Below, piece after piece: positions 3,013-45,102 of a stretch of 64,000 bases of DNA (position 1 is the stretch's first letter; every line of letters starts with the position of its first letter). The notes under the pieces were generated by a model that saw only the letters and a list, made by a program, of their open reading frames with translations, was not told the DNA's origin and did no database searches. Source of the stretch: Asterias amurensis (Eukaryota > Echinodermata > Asteroidea > Forcipulatida > Asteriidae); assembly GCF_032118995.1 (NCBI RefSeq), contig NC_092662.1, positions 620,001-684,000 of the forward strand. Direction: 5' to 3'. Position numbers and translations under genes: made by a program.

Positions 3013-3403
3013 TTAAAGGAACACGTTGCCTTGGATCGGACGAGTTGGTCTATAAAAAGCGTTTGAAACCGTTTGTTATGAAATGTATATGGTTAGAAAG
3101 ATGTTTTAAAAGTAGAATATAATGATCCACACAAGTATCTCTCAAAATGGCACGGTTTTCTTTTTACGTCGCGAACTATCACGGTCGGCCATTTATGGGG
3201 GTCAAAATTTTGACTCCCATAAATGGCCGACCGTGTTTTTGGACGAGGTAAAAAGAAAACCACGCAATTTCGAGGCATATTTGTGTAGATCATTGTATTC
3301 TACTTTTACATCATCTTTCTAACCATGTGCATTTTATAATAAACGGTCAAAAAACGCTTTTCAAAGACCAACTCGACCGATCCAAGGCAACGTGTTCCTT
3401 TAA
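3013..3403. mobile_element. TTAA-flanked foldback MITE (family B)
   Basis: TTAA occurs at both ends (3013-3016 and 3400-3403). Directly inside are the perfect repeats AGGAACACGTTGCC and GGCAACGTGTTCCT, and imperfect complementarity continues across almost the whole 391 bp to a centre near 3205. This is a full-length hairpin. TTAA target sites with this layout are typical of piggyBac-related MITEs. The two similar open frames on opposite strands here are mirror images of one another through the palindrome and are not genes. Confidence 0.85.
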
Positions 3404-5007: not shown

Positions 5008-5266
5008 CTGTTGAGCTAGTCTTGGCCCAAGACGATGGTGCTTGATTCTGGATAGTGTACTACGCGCGGTTGAATCGCCAAAGCGCGCCCGCCACGGTAT
5101 GATTTAGTTACGTGGACGGCTTGAAATCTAGCAGAGTGTAGTCTAGATTTCAAGCCGTCCACGTAACTAAATCATACCGTGGCGGGCGCGCTTTGGCGAT
5201 TCAACCGCGCGTAGTACACTATCCAGAATCAAGCACCATCGTCTTGGGCCAAGACTACTGTTGAGC
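5008..5266. mobile_element. Perfect palindromic element with 9-bp target-site duplication
   Basis: Two perfect 115-base arms (5017-5131 and 5143-5257) are reverse complements separated by an 11-base spacer (5132-5142). CTGTTGAGC stands immediately outside both ends (5008-5016 and 5258-5266). A 9-bp direct repeat abutting the ends of a palindrome is the mark of a transposition event. 9-bp duplications are usual for Mutator-like elements, and some other superfamilies make 8-9 bp ones. The outer ends read TAGTCTTGGCCCAAGAC. The element has no open frame and must be mobilised in trans. It sits inside another repeat, a relative of which (with no palindrome in it) is near 22955-23060. Confidence 0.88.
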
Positions 5267-14041: not shown

Positions 14042-22123
<8,082 letters not shown>

Positions 22124-22391: not shown

Positions 22392-23860
22392 TTAAAGCCA
22401 ATGATGTAAGGTAAGTTAACAGTGCAGTACTTGGTTGTTTTAGGGGTTTTTTTCTTGTTATTTTTCATCATGGTCTTTCACAAAAAAATCATCAGAGTGA
22501 CAAATCAGGTTATGTGGCAAGTATACAAGTTATTGTCAAAATGGCAATCTGCACAAGAATGTGTGGGTGTAAGTGGGTGCAATCAATAAAGAAGTCTGTT
22601 ACGCGTTATACAAGGAACCTATGCCTAGGTTTTCTCCTTGTAAACAAAAGGAATAACAAAGTTAAATTTTCACCTATGCATTTCATGTTTCATAAAAGTA
22701 AATATTTTGCCAGATTAATTATAAATTATAAAAACAATCCTTGCCTGTTTTTTTGCTATTATAAAAGAAATTATCCTAATTATTTTTTAGGCACAACTGG
22801 TGACTTGCCAATTTATTTTCGATTTTAAATGATTCTATTATATTACACCATGTTGTAGTAAAGACTCTATTGCAATCAGAAAAACATACTATGGGTAAAA
22901 GTTAAGATTCGAGGGGGAGGATGTAGGAAAAAGACAAGAGGTGGCCAGGCAATAGCCTGAACATCTGACGTCACACTTCGAGGCTCGTGAATAACGCCAG
23001 ACACCTGCCTCGTGACCGGCGTATATATTCACCTTTGACCTACCGTCAGTTCACATAGAGTTACGCAGTCAAATTCTATTGCGGACGTGACAGCAGTGAC
23101 TGTTTGGGCATCTATGTCACTGCACGTTTACCAAATGATATCATTCTATCCAATGGGAATCATTGGATCTAGCGGCAGTGACCTGTCTTTATCCTTGCAG
23201 ATAAAGACAGGGGCCCAGTCTAGCCGAGCTAAAGACAGTGACTACCTGATGTAGTTGCTGCCAACAATTGCCCCTTATTTCCAAGACTGGACTTGTTTTG
23301 AGTATTGGTTCTTGTAAGGTCCAGGCTGGAATGAGAATAGCAGGACAAACCTGATATGTGGGCATGTGTGTGTGTGTGTGTGTGTGAGCGTGTCTACCCG
23401 TTGCGTCTGAGGACTTTTAGAGATTTGAATGTTTGACAGAGTGAGGACATCCTCGCTTCCTCTCATGGTCAAAACCAATTGTGAGGTCACTAAAACAAAC
23501 CAAGTCCAAACAGTTGGAGTAGTCCTCCATTAGCCGGATTCACAAACATGATTGTGTTTGTGAGTATTTTCTATTTTTTTATCAACGCAATAAAATTATT
23601 CCTTTGAACAACTCTGCTGCATTCATACTAAATTTATAATGTTTGCTAATTTTTTCAATGTCTGCATTAATTTGTGTAATATTAATTAATAAGTTATGCC
23701 TTTTATATCTCCGATTATAATGAACCTTTCACACGAAATATGCAAATTTGATATTGCGCGTGCGCACTGACGCTATTGGTGGCTCAAAAAAGTGAACACA
23801 GCGCCTTTTTGAATGGGGCTGATGGTGGCATGATGCATACTTGATTGTACGTCTGCCTAT
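22392..23860. other. Intergenic stretch with one dispersed repeat
   Basis: At about 22955-23060 'gcctgaacatctgacgtcac' and 'acctttgacct' match the sequence that hosts the palindrome at 5008-5266. A (TG)n run lies at 23365-23386. No gene is recognised. Confidence 0.5.
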
Positions 23861-24189
23861 GAGCGCACAAGCCTATGAGCGCACAATGCTTTAAGCCAAT
23901 GCTGGCCAACCAATAGTGGGTACCTTTGCGTGAATTTAATTTGCACATTTTCACCGAAAGGCTAGATTTCTAATTATGAAAATTTTTTAATTTATGAATG
24001 CATGTTTTAATGCAGTGTACAAGCTTGAGCGCACAAGCCTATGAGCGCACAATGCTTTAAGCCAATGCTGGCCAACCAATAGTGGGTACCTTTGCGTGAA
24101 TTGAATTTGCACATTTTCACCGAAAGGCTAGATTTCTAATTATGAAAATTTTTTAATTTATGAATGCATGTTTGAATGCAGTGTACAAC
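23861..24189. repeat. 166-bp tandem duplication
   Basis: Two nearly identical copies begin at 23861 and 24027 ('gagcgcacaagcctatgagc ...') and end with 'tgaatgcatgtt' and 'gcagtgtacaa'. Only a few substitutions separate them, so the duplication is recent. Confidence 0.9.
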
Positions 24190-24660: not shown

Positions 24661-25100
24661 GCCACATTGTAGTCAAACCTCCTGTTGTAATTTTGATGAA
24701 AGTGCTGTACTTACCCCCTTGTGATTTCTGTTTAGTTTTTGGCCCAAATTTGATAAAATGCTTGCACCTTGTTATTTCTTTTTAGTTTTGGGCCCAAATT
24801 GGATAAAAGTGCTGGCCTTACTTGCGTTTTACCAGTTTTTGGGCTCAAATTGGATACAAACCACGTCTCTGTATGAAGGAATTATCTTTTAATTTTATTA
24901 CACGAAGTTCGTAATATTCAACTGACATGATGATTTAATGAAGGTCTGTCTCTCTCACGTGTTTATGGTTTGTTGTTTCAATTAAATTCGAAAATCGCGG
25001 TTTGAGTGTAAAGAAAATTACATCATGATAAGGAATGAGAAAACAAGGCTTACCCCTTGTAATTTCAGTCCAAATGACATGGATAGTCTATATAAAGGAG
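24661..25100. repeat. Degenerate repeats outside the left arm
   Basis: 'ttttggcccaaatttgataaaa' variants recur at about 24736, 24787 and 24837, each near 'acttacccccttgtgatt'-like text. The reverse complement of the same words appears just outside the right arm (about 30880-30920), so similarity between the two flanks extends, decayed, beyond the arms. Confidence 0.55.
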
Positions 25101-25735
25101 TTACCCCCTTGTGATTTTAGACCAAACGACATTGGTCATCAAAAGGTATGAGCAGTCGAGGCTTACCACCATCTAAATTACATGACGAACCAAAACCTGC
25201 ATCGGTTATAGCTTGCCCCTGTAGCTACACGCTTAACGAATTGGCTGAGAGCAACGAGATCCGAGTTCAACTCCCGCTGCTGTCTCTTTTTCTATTTTGC
25301 TTTGACGTAGTGAGTGAATAATATAAGTAGTTTTAAAAACCAGCTCAATCACCAGCGGGCACTGTGGCGACACGGTGTACTGGATAGTTCCATTGTGCGT
25401 GCAATCCAGAGCTGGGACACCGGTTCGAATCCTACCCGTACCAAGAGGGACATGACTTTTACTGCTTGCACCAGTAATGGATTGGGGTCCGTCATGTCTA
25501 TCCCCAAATTAGGTGTGGATGATTTACCGTGTGGGAGAGTAAAGGAGGGACCGGGACTGGCAAGTCCCTTAAGGGTTCTAATGGGTGATCACCACGCTGG
25601 TTTCGGCCAGACTTTGAGTCCCCTGAAAGCCTGGTCGTCACTCTGACTAACTCTTTGCACAAATTTTCTTTAACTGTATTTCACTTATACCAAAATATTT
25701 TTAACCAAGCCTTATAGACATTTCCAAGCAAAATC
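25101..25735 (+). repeat. Left arm of a ~635-bp inverted repeat
   Basis: This is the reverse complement of 30247-30882 with only scattered differences. For example, the translation of about 80 codons from 'gcaatccagagctgggacac' to 'gcctggtcgtcact' is identical in both arms. It carries two tRNA-like pol III B-box words, gagttcaactccc (near 25263) and ggttcgaatcc (25423-25433), the latter after a possible anticodon-stem pair ctgga/tccag. The 110-codon open frame inside is not supported as a gene. Confidence 0.9.
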
Positions 25736-28700
25736 TGACAAGTTCACGAGGCTATTTGCCTTGTAAACTTTTTCAGGCAAATTTTGACAAGGTTACAAGG
25801 CTTAAAAAAATTCAAATTCAAATTTTGCTTGAAAAAATCTACAAGGCTATAGCCTTGTGATCTTGTCAAATTTTGCTTGAAAAAATCTACAAGGCTATAG
25901 CCTTGTGATCTTGTCAAATTTTGCTTGAAAAAAATCTACAAGGCTATAGCCTTGTGATCTTGTCAAATTTTGCTTGAAAAAATCTACAAGGCTATAGCCT
26001 TGTGATCTTGTCAAATTTTGCTTGAAAAAATCTACAAGGCTATAGCCTTGTGATCTTGTCAAATTTTGCTTGAAAAAATCTACAAGGCATAGCCTTGTGA
26101 TATTGTCAAGTTTTTCTTGAAAAAATCTACAAGGCTAATTTTGCTTGAAAAAGTCTATAAGGCTATAAGCCTGGTGATTTTGTCAAATTTTGCTTGAAAA
26201 AAATCTACAAGGCTATAGCCTTGTGATCTTGTCAAATTTTGCTTTAAAAAATCTACAAGGCTATAGCCTGGTGATTTTGTCAAATTTTGCTTGAAAAAAA
26301 TCTACAAGGCTATAGCCTTGTGATTTTGTCAAATTATGCTTGAACAAATCTACAAGGCTATAGCCTTGTGATTTTGTCAAATTTTGCTTGAAAAAATCTA
26401 CAAGGCTATAGCCTTGTGATCTTGTCAAATTTTGCTTGAAAAAATCTACAAGGCTATAGCCTTGTGATCTTGTCAAATTTTGCTTGAAAAAATCTACAAG
26501 GCTATATGCCTTGTGATCTTGTCAAATTTTGCTTGAAAAAATCTACAAGGCTATAGCCTTGTGATCTTGTCAAATTGTGCTTGAAAAAATCTACAAGGCA
26601 TAGCCTTGTGATATTGTCAAGTTTTTCTTGAAAATATCTACAAGGCTAATTTTGCTTGAAAAAGTCTATAAGGCTATAGCCTAGTGATTTTGTCAAACTT
26701 TGCTTGAAAAAATCTACAAGGCTATAGCCTTGTGATATTGTCAAGTTTTTCTTGAACAAATCTACAAGGCTAATTTTGCTTGAAAAAATCTACAAGGCTA
26801 TAGCCTAGTGATTTTGTCAAACTTTGCTTGAAAAAATCTACAAGGCTATAGCCTTGTGATATTGTCAAGTTTTTCTTGAACAAATCTACAAGGCTAATTT
26901 TGCTTGAAAAAATCTACAAGGCTATAGCCTTCTAGCTATAGTCAAATTTTGCTTGAAAAAAATCTACAAGGCTATATCCTTGTGATTTTGTCAAATTATG
27001 CTTGAACAAATCTACAAGGCTATAGCCTTGTGATCTTGTCAAATTTTGCTTGAAAAAATCTACAAGGCTACAGCCTTGTGATCTTGTCAAATTTTGCTTG
27101 AACAAATCTACAAGGCTATAGCCTTGTGATTTTGTCAAATTATGCTTGAACAAATCTACAAGGCTATAGCCTTGTGATATTGTCAAGTTTTGCTTGAACA
27201 AATCTACAAGGCTAATTTTGCTTGAAAAAATCTACAAGGCTATAGCCTTGTAGATTTTGTCAAATTATGCTTGAACAAATCTACAAGGCTATAGCCTTGT
27301 GATTTTGTCAAATTATGCTTGAACAAATCTACAAGGCTATAGCCTTGTGATCTTGTCAAATTTTGCTTGAAAAATCTACAAGGCTATAGCCTTGTGATCT
27401 TGTCAAATTTTGCTTGAAAAAATCTACAAGGCTATAGCCTTGTGATTTTGTCAAATTTTGCTTGAAAAAATCTACAAGGCTATATGCCTTGTGATCTTGT
27501 CAAATTTTGCTTGAAAAAATCTACAAGGCTATATAGCCTTGTGATCTTGTCAAATTTTGCTTGAAAAAATCTACAAGGCTATAGCCTAGTGATTTTGTCA
27601 AACTTTGCTTGAAAAAATCTACAAGGCTATAGCCTTGTGATATTGTCAAGTTTTTCTTGAACAAATCTACAAGGCGAATTTTGCTTTAAAAAATCTACAA
27701 GGCTATAGCCTTCTAGCTATAGTCAAATTTTGCTTGAAAAAAATCTACAAGGCTATATATAGCCTTGTGATTTTGTCAAATTATGCTTGAAAAAATCTAC
27801 AAGGCTACAGCCTTGTGATCTTGTCAAATTTTGCTTGAAAAAATCTACAAGGCTATAGCCTTGTGATCTTGTCAAATTTTGCTTGAAAAAATCTACAAGG
27901 CTATAGCCTTGTGATTTTGTCAAATTTTGCTTGAAAAATCTACAAGGCTATAGCCTTGTGATCTTGTCAAATTTTGCTTGAAAAAATCTACAAGGCTATA
28001 GCCTTGTGATTTTGTCAAATTTTGCTTGAAAAAATCTACAAGGCTAATTTTGCTTGAAAAAGTCTACAAGGCTGAAGCCTTGTGATTTTGTCAAATTTTG
28101 CTTGAAAAAATCTACAAGGCTCATATAGCCTTGTGATTTTGTCAAATTTTGCTTGAAAAAATCCACAAGGCTATAGCCTAGTGATATTGTCAAGTTTTTC
28201 TTGAAAAAACCTACAAGGCTAATTTTGCTTGAAAAAATCTACAAGGCTATAGCCTTGTGATTTTGTCAAATTATGCTTGAAAAAATCTACAAGGCCTTGT
28301 GATCTTGTCAAATTTTGCTTGAAAAAATCTACAAGGCATAGCCTTGTGATATTGTCAAGTTTTTCTTGAAAAAACCTACAAGGCTAATTTTGCTTGAAAA
28401 AGTCTATAAGGCTATAGCCTGGTGATTTTGTCAAATTTTGCTTGAAAAAAATCTACAAGGCTATAGCCTTGTGATCTTGTCAAATTTTGCTTTAAAAAAT
28501 CTACAAGGCTATAGCCTTGTGATTTTGTCAAATTTTGCTTGAAAAAATCTACAAGGCTTATATAGCCTTGTGATATTGTCAAACTTTGCTTGAAAAAATG
28601 TACAAGGCTATAGCCTTGTGATATTGTCGGTTTTTCTTGAAAAAATCTACAAGGCTATAATATTGTCAAATTTTGCTTGAAAAAATCTACAAGGCTTGTG

Positions 28701-30246
28701 ATATTGTCAAGTTTTTCTTTAAAAAATCTACAAGGCTAATTTTGCTTGAAAAATCTACAAGGCCTTGTAGATTTTGTCAAATTTTGTTTGAAAAAATCTT
28801 CAAGGCTATAGCCTTGTGATTTTGTCAAATTTTGCTTGAAAAAATCTACAAGGCTATAGCCTTGTGGTCTTGTCAAATTTTGCTTGAAAAAATCTACAAG
28901 GCTATAGCCTAGTGATTTTGTCAAACTTTGCTTGAAAAAATCTACAAGGCTTATAGCCTTGTGATTTTGTCAAATTATGCTTGAACAAATCTACAAGGCT
29001 ATAGCCTTGTGATCTTGTCAAATTTTGCTTGAAAAAATCTACAAGGCTATAGCCTTGTGATTTTGTCAAATTTTGCTTGAAAAAAATCTACAAGGCTATA
29101 GCCTTGTGATATTGCCAAGTTTTTCTTGAAAAAATCTACAAGGCTAATTTTGCTTGAAAAATCTACAAGGCTATAGCCTTGTAGATTTTGTCAAATTATG
29201 CTTGAACAAATCTACAAGGCTATAGCCTAGTGATATTGTCAAGTTTTTCTTGAACAAATCTACAAGGCTAATTTTGCTTGAAAAAATCTACAAGGCTATA
29301 GCCTTCTAGCTATAGTCAAATTTTGCTTGAAAAAAATCTACAAGGCTATAGCCTTGTGATTTTGTCAAATTTTGCTTGAAAAAATCTACAAGGCTTATAT
29401 AGCCTTGTGATATTGTCAAATTTTGCTTGAAAAAATCCACAAGGCTATAGCCTTGTGATCTTGTCAAATTTTGCTTGAAAAAAATCTACAAGGCTATAGC
29501 CTTGTGATCTTGTCAAATTTTGCTTGAAAGAATTAATTTACAAGGCTATAGCCTTGTGATTAGGTCAAATTTTGCTTGAAAAATCTACAAGGCTATAGCC
29601 TTGTGATCTTGTCAAATTTTGCTTGAAAAAGTCTACAAGGCCTTGTGATCTTGTCAAATTTTGCTTGAAAAAATATACAAGGCCTTGTGATATTGTCAAA
29701 TTTTGCTTGAAAAAATCTACAAGGCTATAGCTTTGTAATATTGTCAAATTTTGCTTGAAAAAACCTACAAGGCTTATATAGCCTTGTGATTTTGTCAAAT
29801 TGTGCTTGAAAAAATCTACAAGGCTATAGCCTTGTGATCTTGTCAAATTGTGCTTGAAAAAGTCTACAAGGCCTTGTGATATTGTCAAATTTTGCTTGAA
29901 AAAATCTACAAGGCTATAGCCTTGTGATCTTGTCAACTCTTGCTTGAAAAGTATATTGTCAAATTTTGCTTGAAAAAAACCTACAAGGCCTTGTGATTTT
30001 GTCAAATTTTTGCCGAAAAAGGAACTTGTCCATTTGGGCCTGAAAAAGTCTTGTGATCTTGTCAAATTTTGCTTTAAAAAAATCTACAAGGCCTTGTGAT
30101 CTTGTCAAAGTTTGCTTGAAAAAATCTGCAAGGCAAACAAATTTTGCTTGAAAAATCGACAAAGGCTTGTGGTTTTTTCAAACTTTGCTTGAAAAAATGT
30201 TTAGCCTTGTGATTTTGTCAAATTTTGGCCGAAAAAGGAACTTTTG
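25736..30246. repeat. 48-bp palindromic satellite array, roughly 90 monomers
   Basis: The consensus monomer is 48 bp (ranging from about 46 to 50, with some truncated units). Each contains ACAAGGCTATAGCCTTGT, an 18-bp perfect palindrome, then TGAT(C/T/A)TTGTCAAATTTTGC and TTGAAAAAA. At 27227-27258 the palindrome is 32 bp. The monomer varies at the TGATC/TGATT/TGATA position and in junctions 'ggctaattttgc'. A rare variant 'gccttctagctatagtc' occurs at 26931, 27712 and 29305, spacings of 781 and 1593, suggesting a higher-order unit of ~790 bp. At the left edge (25736-25803) units are in reverse orientation; orientation flips near 25805-25825. The 16-residue repetitive open frames on the minus strand arise because 48 is divisible by three. 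Confidence 0.95.
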
Positions 30247-30882
30247 CTTGGAAAGGTCTATAAGGCTTGGTTAAAAATACTTGGTATAATAGTTGTTAAA
30301 GTTAAATAAAGTTAAAGTAAATTTGTGCAAAGAGTTAGTCAGAGTGACGACCAGGCTTTCAGGGGACTCAAAGTCTGGCCGAAACCAGCGTGGTGATCAC
30401 CCATTAGAACCCTTAAGGGACTTGCCAGTCCCGGTCCCTCCTTTACTCTCCCACACGGTAAATCATCCACACCTAATTTGGGGATAGACATGACGGACCC
30501 CAATCCATTACTGGTGCAAGCAGTAAAAGTCATGTCCCTCTTGGTACGGGTAGGATTCGAACCGGTGTCCCAGCTCTGGATTGCACGCAATTGAACTATC
30601 CAGTACACCGTGTCGCCACAGTGCCCGCTGGTGATTGAGCTGGTTTTTAAAACTACTTATATTATTCACTCACTACGTCAAAGCAAAATAGAAAAAGAGA
30701 CAGCAGCGGGAGTTGAACTCGGATCTCGTTGCTCTCAGCCAATTCGTTAAGCGTGTAGCTACAGGGGTAAGCTATAACCGATGCAGGTTTTGGTTCGTCA
30801 TGTAATTTAGATGGTGGTAAGCCTCGGCTGCTCATACCTTTTGATGACCAATGTCGTTTGGTCTAAAATCACAAGGGGGTAA
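30247..30882 (-). repeat. Right arm of the ~635-bp inverted repeat
   Basis: It mirrors 25101-25735. The innermost words 'ggaaaggtctataaggcttg' and outermost 'acaagggggtaa' match the left arm's inner and outer ends. There are small length differences, e.g. 'ttcaattgcgtgc' here against the left arm's 'ttccattgtgcgtgc' on the other strand. The arms are far more alike than neighbouring satellite monomers are to each other. Confidence 0.9.
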
Positions 30883-31310
30883 GTCCAGAGTTTTTATCAA
30901 ATTTGAGCCAAAAACGTTTTCGGACAAAATTTGACAAGTTCACAGAGACTTTTTTCGGACAAAACAAGTTCACAGGGTCTGGTAGACCTTTTCAAGCATA
31001 ATTGTACAAGTTCACGCCTTGTAGACTTTTTCAAGCAAAATTTGACAAGCTCGAAAAAGTACACAAGCCTATAGCTTTGTGAACTTTTCGCACGAAAAAG
31101 TACACAAGGCCTTAAGTACTGTTAGCTCGAAAAAGTAGCTCTGAACTTTTCCCTAAACAAAACGTACAAGCCTTGTGAACTTTCCCTCAAAAAAGTACAC
31201 GAGGGGCGTTGCGAATTTTTCGCTTGAAAAAGTGTACAGGCCTTGTGAACTCTTCCCTCAAAAAAGTTACAAGGCCTGTACACTTTTCTGGCAAACTTCG
31301 TCAAGAAGGT
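30883..31310. repeat. Degenerate satellite-like units outside the right arm
   Basis: Words such as 'ctttttcaagcaaaatttga' (about 31025-31045), 'agccttgtgaacttt' and 'gaaaaagtacacaagg' are decayed relatives of the 48-bp monomer, here in the reverse orientation to the main array. The repeat field therefore extends outside the arm. Confidence 0.6.
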
Positions 31311-33192: not shown

Positions 33193-36100
33193 TCAGAGGG
33201 GTGTCCAGAGGGGTGCAGGTGTAGGGACACTCATCAGAGGGGAATCCAGGGGCTCTGGGACTGCTACAGGACTAGGTATGTATGCCTCAATCTTCTTCAA
33301 GACATTACTGTATAGATCTCGAACCTCTTGACTGTGCTGTAAAGAGGAACAAATGAAAACAAAAAGTTAAGCAAGTTTACCGGTGAATCCCGAGGCTTAG
33401 AAGTTCATTCTTTAAGTGGAATCTTAACATCTATGTGAACCAAGGCCAACGCCAAAGGCAAAGGAGGCCAGTAGTGTTCCCGTCTTCCAATAAAAATTTC
33501 ATTCTGCCACCCTGCTTCTGTGCTAGTCCAAGGGGTCCAAGAGGCGATCGATCTGGTCACACCATTTTTTTTCCAGCACGCACTGGTCACTCATAACCCT
33601 TGGCACCAATTTCATAGATTTGCTGCTTAAGCAGACATTATTGCAGAAATAAGCAGAATACCAGTCACAAATTGTACATGAGAATGGTATTGTGGCTGGT
33701 AACCTTATTCTAGTAAGCATAATTCTGTTGTGCCTACATGTAGCTACTTTTCATGCTTAAAGACACTTGACACTTTTGGCAATTGTCAAAGACCAGTCTT
33801 CTCACGTGTATCTCAACATATGCATTAAATAACAAACCTGTGAAAATTTGAGCTCAATTGGTCATCGAAGTTGCGAGATAATAATGAAAGAAAAAACACC
33901 CTTGTCACACGAAGTTGTGTGCTTTCAAATGCTTGATTTCGAGACCCCAAAATCTAATTCTGAGGTCTCAAAATCAAATTTGTGCAAAATTACTTCTTTC
34001 TTGAAAACTATGTTACTTCAGAGGGAGCCGTTTCTCAAAATGTTATATACTGTACTATCAACAGATCCCTATTACTTTTTACCAAGTTAGGTTTTATGCT
34101 AATAACTTTGTTTGAGTAACTACCAATAGTGTCCAGTAATTACCAATAGTGTCCACTGCTTTTAACTTGTGAAATTTCTAAATGTATGCAATTCAGGGTA
34201 ACTTTTAAAAAACATAATAAATTTGAGGGGAATCACGTCAAACTACTTGCATTTTGACCTAAACAAAGCACCCTGAAAATGCTCATAAGTTTTTAACAAG
34301 CCTGCGTGCAGAGAAGTCACTTTTCTGAACTTTTCCTCTCATTCCTACCAGTGGTTAGTGATGGAAGGAATCTATGACCTCATGACCCCACTTCCTTCAG
34401 CTTACCTCTGTTTTGGGCTCCAGTCTGTCCATCAACTTTGACGTCCTCTCTGAAGGCACTTTGTGGAAAACATACTCCAACAGTCGCAACGTGTGTCTAA
34501 GAACATTCTCCTGAATGCCAGATCCAAGGAGAAACTCCTCGAAAATGAGGTTACAAAAATTCACTGAGGAGAAATCCTCTCCCATCAGCGCCAGCTGAGA
34601 CATAAAAGGATGTAAGAAGATATCATCGTAAGACATGTTGCTCTCTGTCTTGGTAATCTTAGGGAGGACCCTGAAGAGGGCATCTTTGTTCCTCTGTCTT
34701 GTGATGTGTAAGATGTAGTAAAGAAGGAGGGTTGAAGCGATGCGGTCCTTACGAGAGGACTTCAGGAGTTGACCGGGGACATCCTTGAGTTTGGGATCAT
34801 CTTCTGTTTCGTGGATACGTCTGTTGATATTACGAATGTAGTCATCAGTCAGCAATGACATAAGACTTGGAAGAAATCTCAAAACAAGGTCATTTTCCTG
34901 TAGAAATGAAACAAAACAAAATTCTATCAAAAATCCAGCGACAGCACAGACAAAAGTAAATTATGATTTCGCAATTTGGTTAACAGTTTACGCTGGTATC
35001 TGCCAAGAATGATAAATATTACCCTTGTCAATGGTTACGTCATTTCATTTAAAACAGCCTTCAACTCACTAGTATCAACAAAACAAAACTAAATAAAATT
35101 TGTTTTCCAAACCACAGCTTAGGGTCCAGCTGCAGGCTCCATTTTGATGTTGAGCTGCTGTGCAAAATGCAAACTGATCCAAAGACGACTGAGCCCAAGC
35201 GGGAGCCCAAACAAATATGTTTAAAACAGAAGATAACAAAATATAAAAATTCAGCTTACCATTTTGGGCTCATGGAAGTGTTGTTTGTCAATCATATCCC
35301 AAGCTCCGAGACCCAACGCCAACATTCTGAGCAACAGCAATAGTACAGCACTTTCCTGGTCAAAACAAACAGCATTATAGACTAATTTAAATATCAAGTA
35401 ATCGATCACAACTGACTGGGAAAAATGTACTAGAGTGGGACTGGACTTGCGACCTCCTGACTAACGTGCCAGCACTATACCAACTCAGTCAATGTTGGGG
35501 GTTCTTTCTTTCTTGCCAGCAAGAAGCCAATGAACCTAACCTGCTGTATAGACTGAAATAGTTTTGAATCCCTCACTCTAAAACCACATTCCTCAGAAGT
35601 GAATTATTTCTATAAATGTTATGCAATATGAACAGGTGCAGTGCTTCTTACCATTCCAAGTAAGTTGTCATGGTAATTGTTTTGTTTAAGCAATTACCAA
35701 AGGTATACCCTTCGTTTTAACGGACAGGATGATGGCCATGTGATAAAGGACAAAGCTGAAAGAGGAATCCTTTTCAATAATATTGCAAGGCCACATCCCT
35801 GCAAAGTCTGTTATTGAAGTTGTTCTAAAACTTGGGCAGTTTCGCCAAGGGTAAATAAAATTGCACGCGCCCCAGCAGTTTTGCATTTGCACGTGTGTCA
35901 ACACTTACCCTAGGTAGTTTTTCGGAGCTCATTAGTTGCTGCATTACTTTGATGCTACTTGTAGCGATGGTGTGAATAGAAAATGGATCACACAAGATCA
36001 TAGACAGGTCACTAAAAAGAATAATTATACAAAACACAATTTAGTAATTATACATAATTAAAACTTCAAATAATAACCCATAGGGGAAACTGACTGGGTA

Positions 36101-42900: not shown

Positions 42901-45102
42901 TCGTAGCGATGAAGATTTCCTTGCCAAATTGCACTGTATAAGATTAGCAATGACTTTGCTTCTTGAAGACCAGAGCATTGCTGACTGGTTTGTGCTGATG
43001 GGGAAGCAACTAATAGGCGACCTTCTCGTCAAAGCAAACTATGTAAGTTGAGTAAGAATAAATAATCGTACCTATTTCAAAAAAGAAAATGTTCTCTTTA
43101 CCAAAACTTGTGGACACTTAGAAGACTCTTACTTTCCTTTGCTTTGCAGGACACAGAAGAATTTGAAGAAGCATTTGATGAACTAATGAAATACGTCAGG
43201 GATCCACAGAATTTTAAGGAAATTGAGAAGGAACTTAGGGCAAGAAAGGTAAATTTATCTTGAATTATTCTAGGAACAGTTATACTTTACTAAATTGCCA
43301 GTTTGAATGGAGTTTAAAGCCATTGGACCCTTTCGGTACACAGATTTACAAATAATTTACAGGGTTTACTTTTTGAGAAAACAGTAAAACAATATAAATT
43401 CTCGTTGGCGAGAATTACGGATTTATTTTAAACACATGTCATGACACGGCGAAACGCGCGGAAACAAGAGTGGGTTTTCCCGTTATTTTCTCCCGACTCC
43501 GATGACCGATTGAGCCTAAATTTTCACAGGTTTGTTGTTTTATATATAAGTTGTGATACACCAAGTGTGGGACTTGGACAATACTGTTAACCGAAAGTGT
43601 ATAATGGCTTTAAGGAGTAAAATGATTTATAAGGCAACTTTGTCACAAACTTTCTTTACATTTTTGTAGGTTCGCTTCTTGTCCTTCTACGATATTGTCT
43701 TGGATTTCCTTCTCCTGGATGCATTCGATGATCTTGAAGACCCACCGACATCAATCACATGCGTCACACAAAACAGATGGTTATCAAACAGGGTCAAGGA
43801 AACAGTGAGTTACTTCCCCCCTCTCAAAGTTTATACAAAATTAATAGTGTTAGAATGATTTTTTTACACAAAATTGTCATAAGCAGCCACATGAATTGTG
43901 TCTCAGCTTACACTGGACATGAGCTCGAAGGGAATTTTTGTCTTACAACCAAAAAAAAAGATGAGAAAAATTGTCTTTGCTCTGAAGTTCCTTTTAAATA
44001 GTCTCCTTTTAAATATGAAATGTAATTTACAATGCACACAAATGTGAATGGTACCACTGTTAGATGTTTGCAAAGAAGAGTGTTCTGTTTTTTCTCCAGG
44101 CTCTCGTTTGTTTTTGATTATACTTTATGACTTAATTTTATGCAGGCCGTCTCTACAGCAGTGTGGTCTGTCCTAGCAGCTAAACGCAGAATGCTTAAGG
44201 TAAATGCCAAGGGCTTTAATTGGAGTCGGGAAAGTTGGAAACACCAGCAATTATGAAGTGAATCAATTTTAAAGTGATTAATTAAGTAAACAAGGACTGG
44301 CAAGGTTCTGGCACTTGATTCAATGACCAAGACTCAATTTCGTGGCTCTGCTGGGCTTATCACAAAACTCTGCACTTACACAGTGCCCTGTAAAGCACGT
44401 CATTCTGTGAGCTGTACGCACAACATTTTAAAATTGGGCCCGCTTTCAAAACTTGCTGATACCAACTGTCGGAACAGTTTATCAACTGTTTATTTTTTCC
44501 TAATAGAACCCTAAGGGTTTCTTGGCCAAGGTTTATCTGATATCTTACCATGTGACGCCAGCACTAGCGTGGGGCTTCCTTGGCTCAGACCACCATCTTA
44601 AACATCTGATGGAATTCTTCAAGGTAAGCGAGACTCCAGTTGCAGTTTATTTCATTTTGTTAATTGAGATCTTTCATCGAGGAACCATTCCTCGTATTGG
44701 ACATGCTTTTCACTATCTTGGTGCATAGTCACCAGTGATCATTGTCTACATTCTGTGGATGGGATGTCAGACCAGCACAGTATTATAATATTTGCAAATC
44801 AACAAAATTAAAACAAATGGAGAGAGAAGTTAAGAACAATGTTACCTGTTGGTCTACATGTCCAGAATATCCACAAAAGACTTTCAGTGTTTGATGTCCA
44901 AGAACTAACGACCACCCACAGATTCTCTATTGCACATTTCTTACTTTTCCAACTCCTCTTGCAGGATCAAGTGTTGGGCTTCTCACGGGATATGTTTTCG
45001 TTGCGGAAGTGTCGATATTCAAGTTTGGCAGAACTTGGAGATGACATCTTGGCACTGGCTAAACACTACAGCACAATAGCATCACAAAAGCTAAGTTCAT
45101 GA
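39967..45102 (+). CDS. MIGA: Mitoguardin (outer mitochondrial membrane fusion factor)
   Basis: Eleven coding exons: 39967-40144, 40384-40653, 41016-41119, 41379-41597, 42277-42440, 42883-43042, 43150-43248, 43670-43804, 44146-44199, 44507-44623, 44965-45102. They join to 545 aa. Residues 9-28 form one N-terminal membrane helix followed by KRRRRGQRQR, the outer-membrane anchor of the family. A Ser/Thr-rich linker follows, then the conserved C-terminal Miga domain (from about residue 280 on: HCIRLAMTLLLED, VRFLSFYDIVLDFLLLDAF, YHVTPALAWGF). SFVSATE at 251-257 fits a phospho-FFAT motif for binding ER VAP proteins, as in known mitoguardins. Family members promote mitochondrial fusion and ER-mitochondria contacts. 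Exon 2 begins at a CAGCAG tandem acceptor (40381-40386), so isoforms may differ by one residue. Vertebrates have two paralogues (MIGA1/2); which one this matches was not determined. Confidence 0.93.
41604..41935 (+). mobile_element. SINE in mitoguardin intron 4
   Basis: It lacks the tRNA head but has the shared body ('taagcaagacacttgccaat', 'cctttggatgggacgttaag', 'aaagaacccagtgcact', 'gccgtagcactttgtaaacc') and the 3' end 'cagcgccttgagtacc' ... 'gcgctatataagacttcgat' followed by TTA-rich tail. It starts about six bases into the intron, just behind the donor at 41598. Confidence 0.75.
42640..42775 (+). mobile_element. TTAA family A fragment in mitoguardin intron 5
   Basis: Only the block around 'tgttttatactatcaacagc', 'tcttaccaag'-like text and 'gttttgagta' remains. 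It is strongly diverged, with no clean ends. Confidence 0.5.
43314..43612 (-). mobile_element. TTAA-flanked element in mitoguardin intron 7
   Basis: TTAA at 43314-43317 and 43609-43612 bounds ends AGCCATTGGACCCTTTCGGT and ACCGAAAGTGTATAATGGCT, which are imperfect reverse complements. The interior 'ttttcacaggtttgttgttt' links it to family A, but the rest differs, so it is a separate subfamily. Confidence 0.8.

Follow-up and report, generated by a model that had tools for sequence, protein, structure and literature searches.

The stretch of Asterias amurensis DNA analysed here, referred to throughout as the window, comprises 64,000 nucleotides and lies on contig C15 at positions 620001-684000. 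It contains exons of NELF-B (COBRA1), mitoguardin-like exons and SAPCD2-like exons, as well as a tRNA-Met gene and, about 3.5 kb from a NELF-B exon, a locus at which two opposed arms enclose an array of a 48-bp satellite (satA). The features of the locus are collected in Table 1. A first-pass annotation, made from the sequence alone, had described two near-identical arms in opposite orientation with about 4.5 kb of satellite between them, and both parts of that description were confirmed. The arms are about 590 bp long and 99% alike, falling into two blocks (25097-25395/30588-30886 and 25396-25686/30299-30589) that are each 99% complementary, and a gapped alignment of 634 columns, at 96.5%, carries the similarity out to 25720/30256. 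Between them, TRF recognizes the array from 25818 to 29950, and degenerate units follow. The annotation also held that an 18-bp palindrome is present in every monomer. There is indeed a strong enrichment of palindromes, those of at least 14 bp occurring at 11 per kb in the array as against 0.19 per kb in the remainder of the window, but a perfect palindrome of at least 18 bp is found in only 45 of the approximately 85 monomers of ordinary length (30-80 bp), and one of at least 14 bp in 49. A 166-bp unit occurs twice, at 98%, at 23860-24188, some 0.9 kb beyond the left arm.

Table 1. Features of the arm-satellite locus; positions are those of the window.
Feature	Position	Strand	Remarks
Left arm	25097..25686	+	Inverted-repeat search; degenerate similarity on to 25720
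Right arm	30299..30886	-	Inverted-repeat search; degenerate similarity on to 30256
Core, left	25318..25678	+	Only part of the arm common to the second subfamily
Core, right	30307..30665	-	Mirror of the left core; limits from the arm alignment
48-bp satellite (satA)	25818..30236	+	TRF span 25818-29950; degenerate units to about 30236 by reading
satB-like (54-bp satellite) pieces	24710..25145 (24710-24815, 25049-25145)	+	Beyond and spanning the left arm's outer end
satB-like piece	30838..30938	-	Spanning the right arm's outer end
satA-like units	30979..31108	-	Beyond the right arm; orientation opposite to that of the inner array
B-box-like motif GGTTCGAATCC	25422..25432	+	Invariant 11-mer, 32/32 cores of alignment A3
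Same B-box-like motif GGTTCGAATCC, right arm	30553..30563	-	Read in the sequence
Second, upstream B-box-like motif GAGTTCAACTCCC	25263..25275	+	T-runs after it; no ARAGORN or Rfam tRNA call
UUCG-loop hairpin	25597..25610	+	Kept in 32/32 aligned cores, in seven sequence versions

The arms had been taken for unique sequence, which proved wrong: they are repeats found across the genome, with pieces resembling a second, 54-bp satellite (satB) at their outer ends. A 27-base pattern from the part of the arm that we call the core, allowing up to three mismatches, gave 145 matches in the genome, and its reversed control gave none; a search with the whole arm, in which 40 of 174 candidates were scored, returned many of them as facing pairs. 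The 61 closest copies, that is, those of the 145 with no mismatch or one (the other 84 have two or three), are spread over at least 11 contigs. C15 carries 20 of these 61 although it accounts for only 18.1 of the 491.5 Mb in the 23 contigs of the genome. Near-identical satellite monomers are common to three arrays on C15. When neighbours among the 61 closest copies were compared over distances of up to 40 kb, 22 relations were found, of which 19 are convergent, three same-direction and none divergent, a distribution with a probability of 2.5e-9 under random orientation, and in the convergent pairs the two cores are separated by 3.7-30.4 kb. The search for arm-satellite-arm structures elsewhere, proposed with the first-pass annotation, was thus positive, the 19 convergent pairs including that of the window. 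Lone arms and head-to-tail arrangements also occur in the arm family. A second subfamily behaves differently: the 39 listed of its 84 copies form 22 same-direction, two convergent and two divergent neighbour relations, and more same-direction runs lie on C12. Since this subfamily is mostly head-to-tail, it is for the subfamily of the window that the inward-facing rule holds.

Assembly of palindromic satellite is difficult, and the right arm might be supposed to be a misplaced inverted copy. We regard such an artefact as very improbable indeed, because the two arms differ by substitutions and by one 2-bp indel and because 18 further core pairs show the same arrangement. The published A. amurensis assembly was built from HiFi reads (PMC10625585), which counts further against an artefact if it is the same genome.

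In each of the 13 pairs that were read from arm to arm (the window included), inverted arms are present and satellite lies inside, and two types of satellite are involved. As judged by 9-mer coverage, satA predominates in the interior of 11 of the 13 pairs (37-86%) and satB in that of the two at L036 and L045/L046 (71 and 75%); the corresponding satellite coverage in other DNA of the window is 0.5-0.6%. The interior at L040 includes some other DNA besides satellite. The same polarity is seen at individual arms. In 30 sampled arms, which are the best 30 of the 40 scored from the 174 candidates and hence those closest to the window arm rather than a random set, satellite was present on the inner side in every case, the best satellite class making up 35-85% of the inner 1.4 kb. 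The outer 1.4 kb was at most 25% satellite in 27 of the 30 and 40-43% satellite in three head-to-tail arms on C6. A satB-like piece near the outer end was present in 15 of 26 arms. The single arms at L049 and L050 have satB on their inner side, and no second core was found there in the approximately 9.9 kb read. At L051, a locus of the second subfamily on C3, one core is flanked on either side by the 54-bp satellite; 3' of the other core, satellite takes up only a short part of the 1.1 kb read. One array lacking a core was looked at, a satA array at about 362.3-370.3 kb on C15, the monomers of which are one base from monomers of the window array; its right end was read, and no core was present in the approximately 1.7 kb beyond 370.3 kb. 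Satellite therefore does not need a core.

The core is about 320-360 bp long and does not code for protein. In an alignment of 18 arms from nine elements, identity between elements is 94.5-98.7% in each 40-bp interval from +120 to +440, with gaps counted, and falls to 52% and then 43% in the next two intervals downstream. On the upstream side it is 87% at +80 and 74-79% from 0 to +80, then 63%, and then about 50%. The pattern of conservation is the same in a second alignment (A1) of 26 arms. The second subfamily, as represented by L051, matches the window arm in the core only, at 86%, and stretches of core from C1, C3, C5, C6, C9, C12, C14, C16 and C20 are 87-95% identical to the core of the window. 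The core is followed by a short A/T-rich repeated tail. A coding function was considered for the core and rejected, as there are stops in every frame together with indels that shift the frame. The arm set comprises the 31 arms in which the core match extended over at least 300 aligned bases; alignment A3, used below, contains 30 of 36 cores plus the two of the window, with six right arms omitted and L056 left out because its match was shorter than 300 bases. Three words from the core were found in no paper searched, most subscription journals being outside the coverage, and core words gave no matches in viral contigs. Recent exchange between copies might be invoked to account for the conservation. 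However, the copies are different in the DNA around the core, and within the core they diverge by up to about 13%, so that recent exchange alone is not an easy explanation, and selection on a non-coding module would account for the conserved core better.

How the two arms of a pair came to be so similar can be approached from their relationships. In a tree of the 26 arms, the left and right arm of a pair are sisters with good support in 10 of the 13 cases; the other three lack resolution. At L032, similarity between the arms is 95-100% over the stretch from -420 to about +420, after which they diverge. Exchange limited to the core was considered for L032 and dropped, because the arms of that locus are 95-100% alike across the core. 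The inverted similarity of the compared pairs ends on the inner side between +442 and +580, some of these limits being set by the stretch compared, and on the outer side 63 to 529 bp outside the start of the core; no common sequence was seen at the outer ends of the pairs compared. Taken together, the sister relationships, the case of L032 and the positions of the ends imply that the arms were made, or have been homogenized, locally.

These results bear directly on the suggestion, one of several made in the first-pass annotation, that the structure could be a foldback-like element. In the form that we have weighed, it would be a non-autonomous foldback-type DNA transposon with a satellite-filled middle, mobilized by a transposase coded elsewhere, and its subterminal binding region would correspond to the core. 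Known foldback elements include FB, Galileo and the TU elements of sea urchins. The present family resembles them in having tandem repeats and long arms in inverted orientation, in the dispersal of its copies and in the link between repeat and satellite. The dispersal of the closest copies over many contigs, the inverted arms around a middle of variable length and the satB-like tandem pieces near many outer ends all speak for such an element. Against it, no signal of target-site duplication was found at the 13 pairs, the longest shared word averaging 5.5 as compared with 5.1 in mismatched controls, although it should be noted that the ragged ends make this a weak test that is not decisive. The outer ends are themselves scattered and unconserved, and arms resemble their partner in the same element rather than the arms of other elements; lone arms and a head-to-tail subfamily exist. 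No transposase-like protein was seen among the 15 frames checked against Pfam, from a total of 53 satellite-poor frames of at least 90 amino acids at L031-L051. The family also departs from foldback elements in that its middle is filled with satellite and a conserved non-coding core is present in each arm. We therefore consider a foldback transposon rather unlikely. A further comparison is provided by Tetris of Drosophila virilis, a foldback element that is reported to be linked with satellite DNA (PMC4079207). The sole Pfam match among the 15 frames was a 721-aa frame with leucine-rich-repeat and immunoglobulin domains (L044:3551-5713), which lies beside head-to-tail copies on C6.

Within the core, the 11-mer GGTTCGAATCC is invariant throughout alignment A3. 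It resembles the B-box consensus, and a second motif of this kind, GAGTTCAACTCCC, lies upstream of the core in the left arm. In a 137-bp unit present in three copies (96%) at L049:8292-8706, two B-box-like motifs, GGGTTCAAATCCC and GGGATTCGAACCC, face each other. No tRNA was called by ARAGORN in 26 loci, and the window cores and those of six other loci matched no known RNA family of Rfam 15. When ARAGORN was run on the majority sequence with less stringent thresholds, the tRNA models obtained were poor and overlapped one another, and they were discarded.

There is some evidence that the core may act as an RNA. In all 32 aligned cores the UUCG hairpin retains full pairing on the inward strand, three of its five pairs varying by compatible changes, and this hairpin and a GCGA hairpin are both fully paired in all 31 distinct cores. 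Two long-range pairs are doubly changed between the subfamilies, one from G-C to A-U and the other from A-U to G-C. The energy of the consensus fold is -84.6; the other strand gives -66.3, and shuffled columns give -53.9 (sd 5.1). When ten sequences were folded singly, z ranged from -1.1 to -3.0 on the inward strand and was mostly near 0 on the other, but reached -2.3 there for one of the ten, L037. Other tests were less clear. The four doubly changed pairs are equalled in 76 of 500 shuffles, and the number lies within the range for shuffled columns (mean 2.1, most 5). Doubly changed cells number 19 in two pairs on the minus strand and 18 in four pairs on the plus strand, and many wobble pairs occur on the minus strand under its own consensus fold. 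When folds are taken from single sequences, the inward strand has no advantage in how well pairs are kept. Changed columns are 6 of 172 paired and 33 of 137 unpaired, a contrast that is biased because the consensus fold avoids variable columns and is therefore given no weight here. The UUCG hairpin is the best support for a core that may function as RNA; the global tests of folding are equivocal, and the case is a suggestive one.

A B-box-like motif, a length of about 310 bp and a short A/T-rich repeated tail are also what might be expected of a tRNA-derived SINE that had been captured by satellite arrays and had spread along with them. The motif and the similar length are genuine points of resemblance. 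In SINEs derived from tRNAs, however, neither the conservation upstream of the supposed start nor the paired, convergent orientation would be anticipated, and all 30 sampled copies (the closest relatives of the window arm) adjoin satellite rather than being dispersed. Given, in addition, that neither ARAGORN nor Rfam found a tRNA, we judge this origin decidedly improbable.

The same motifs admit a reading in terms of DNA rather than RNA. In fission yeast, boundaries are formed by the inverted repeats IR-L and IR-R and by tRNA barriers, with B boxes and TFIIIC. By analogy with the mating-type region of that organism, the core might bind TFIIIC or a similar protein and so halt the spread of heterochromatin from the satellite. 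The likeness is that inverted repeats with B boxes, here B-box-like motifs, stand at both edges of a repetitive domain. The two motifs in each arm, the inward-facing cores at both satellite edges and the proximity of a NELF-B exon would fit such a boundary. The differences are that the present family is a multicopy one in an animal and has a much longer conserved core, its approximately 320 bp exceeding what a protein site needs. The keeping of the hairpins and the existence of satellite edges without a core also argue against a boundary, which seems to us an improbable account of the core. A third point of comparison is given by the Cassandra retrotransposons, which carry a Pol III 5S RNA sequence inside their terminal repeats. 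A conserved Pol III-type motif inside the terminal repeats of a multicopy element is common to both; here, in contrast to Cassandra, the repeats are inverted rather than direct, no signs of a retroelement were seen, and the core is unlike 5S (no Rfam match).

The explanation that we prefer, tentatively and at somewhat less than even confidence, is that selection maintains a module at the edges of satellite arrays, and that this module is most probably a transcription unit of Pol III type directed into the satellite. The locus itself is a satellite array that bears one conserved non-coding module at each edge, with both pointing inward, and it is the core of the module that selection would keep. 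Convergent pairs would then transcribe both strands of the satellite. The fold-back shape would follow from the presence of two such units facing each other, and the arms within one element would be kept alike by local inverted duplication or by gene conversion. It is from the features described above that we infer transcription, the polymerase, the role of the module and the mode by which arrays spread. A bolder version, in which the modules are multicopy genes for structured non-coding RNAs at the rims of satellites, drive transcription of both strands and govern the silencing or upkeep of the arrays, with the module as the selected part, is possible but appears unlikely to us. Known composites of repeat and satellite resemble the separate parts of this system, but we know of no named family that features an oriented, conserved non-coding core of this kind, and no paper on satellite DNA in A. 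amurensis was found (again with most subscription journals outside the coverage). Satellite DNA is usually taken to be fast-evolving filler, the edges of which are accidental. In the present case two different satellites share one conserved and oriented edge module at many places, and through this module it may become possible to ask how such arrays originate, what limits them, and by what means they are transcribed and spread. The question of a foldback transposon is open to testing, as assemblies of male and female A. amurensis and 80 resequenced individuals exist.

Finally, several other repeats are present in the window. A pure (AAT)202 run occupies 18394-19000 (607 bases, 100% matches). 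A hairpin at 5017-5257 has 115-bp arms that are 100% complementary and 11 bases apart, and a palindrome at 3068-3347 consists of two 140-bp arms, 84% complementary, with no spacer. A 147-bp inverted repeat pair (657-803/33805-33951, 91%) extends across 33 kb and is probably a dispersed repeat; part of it, 33806-33884, pairs also with 43483-43561.
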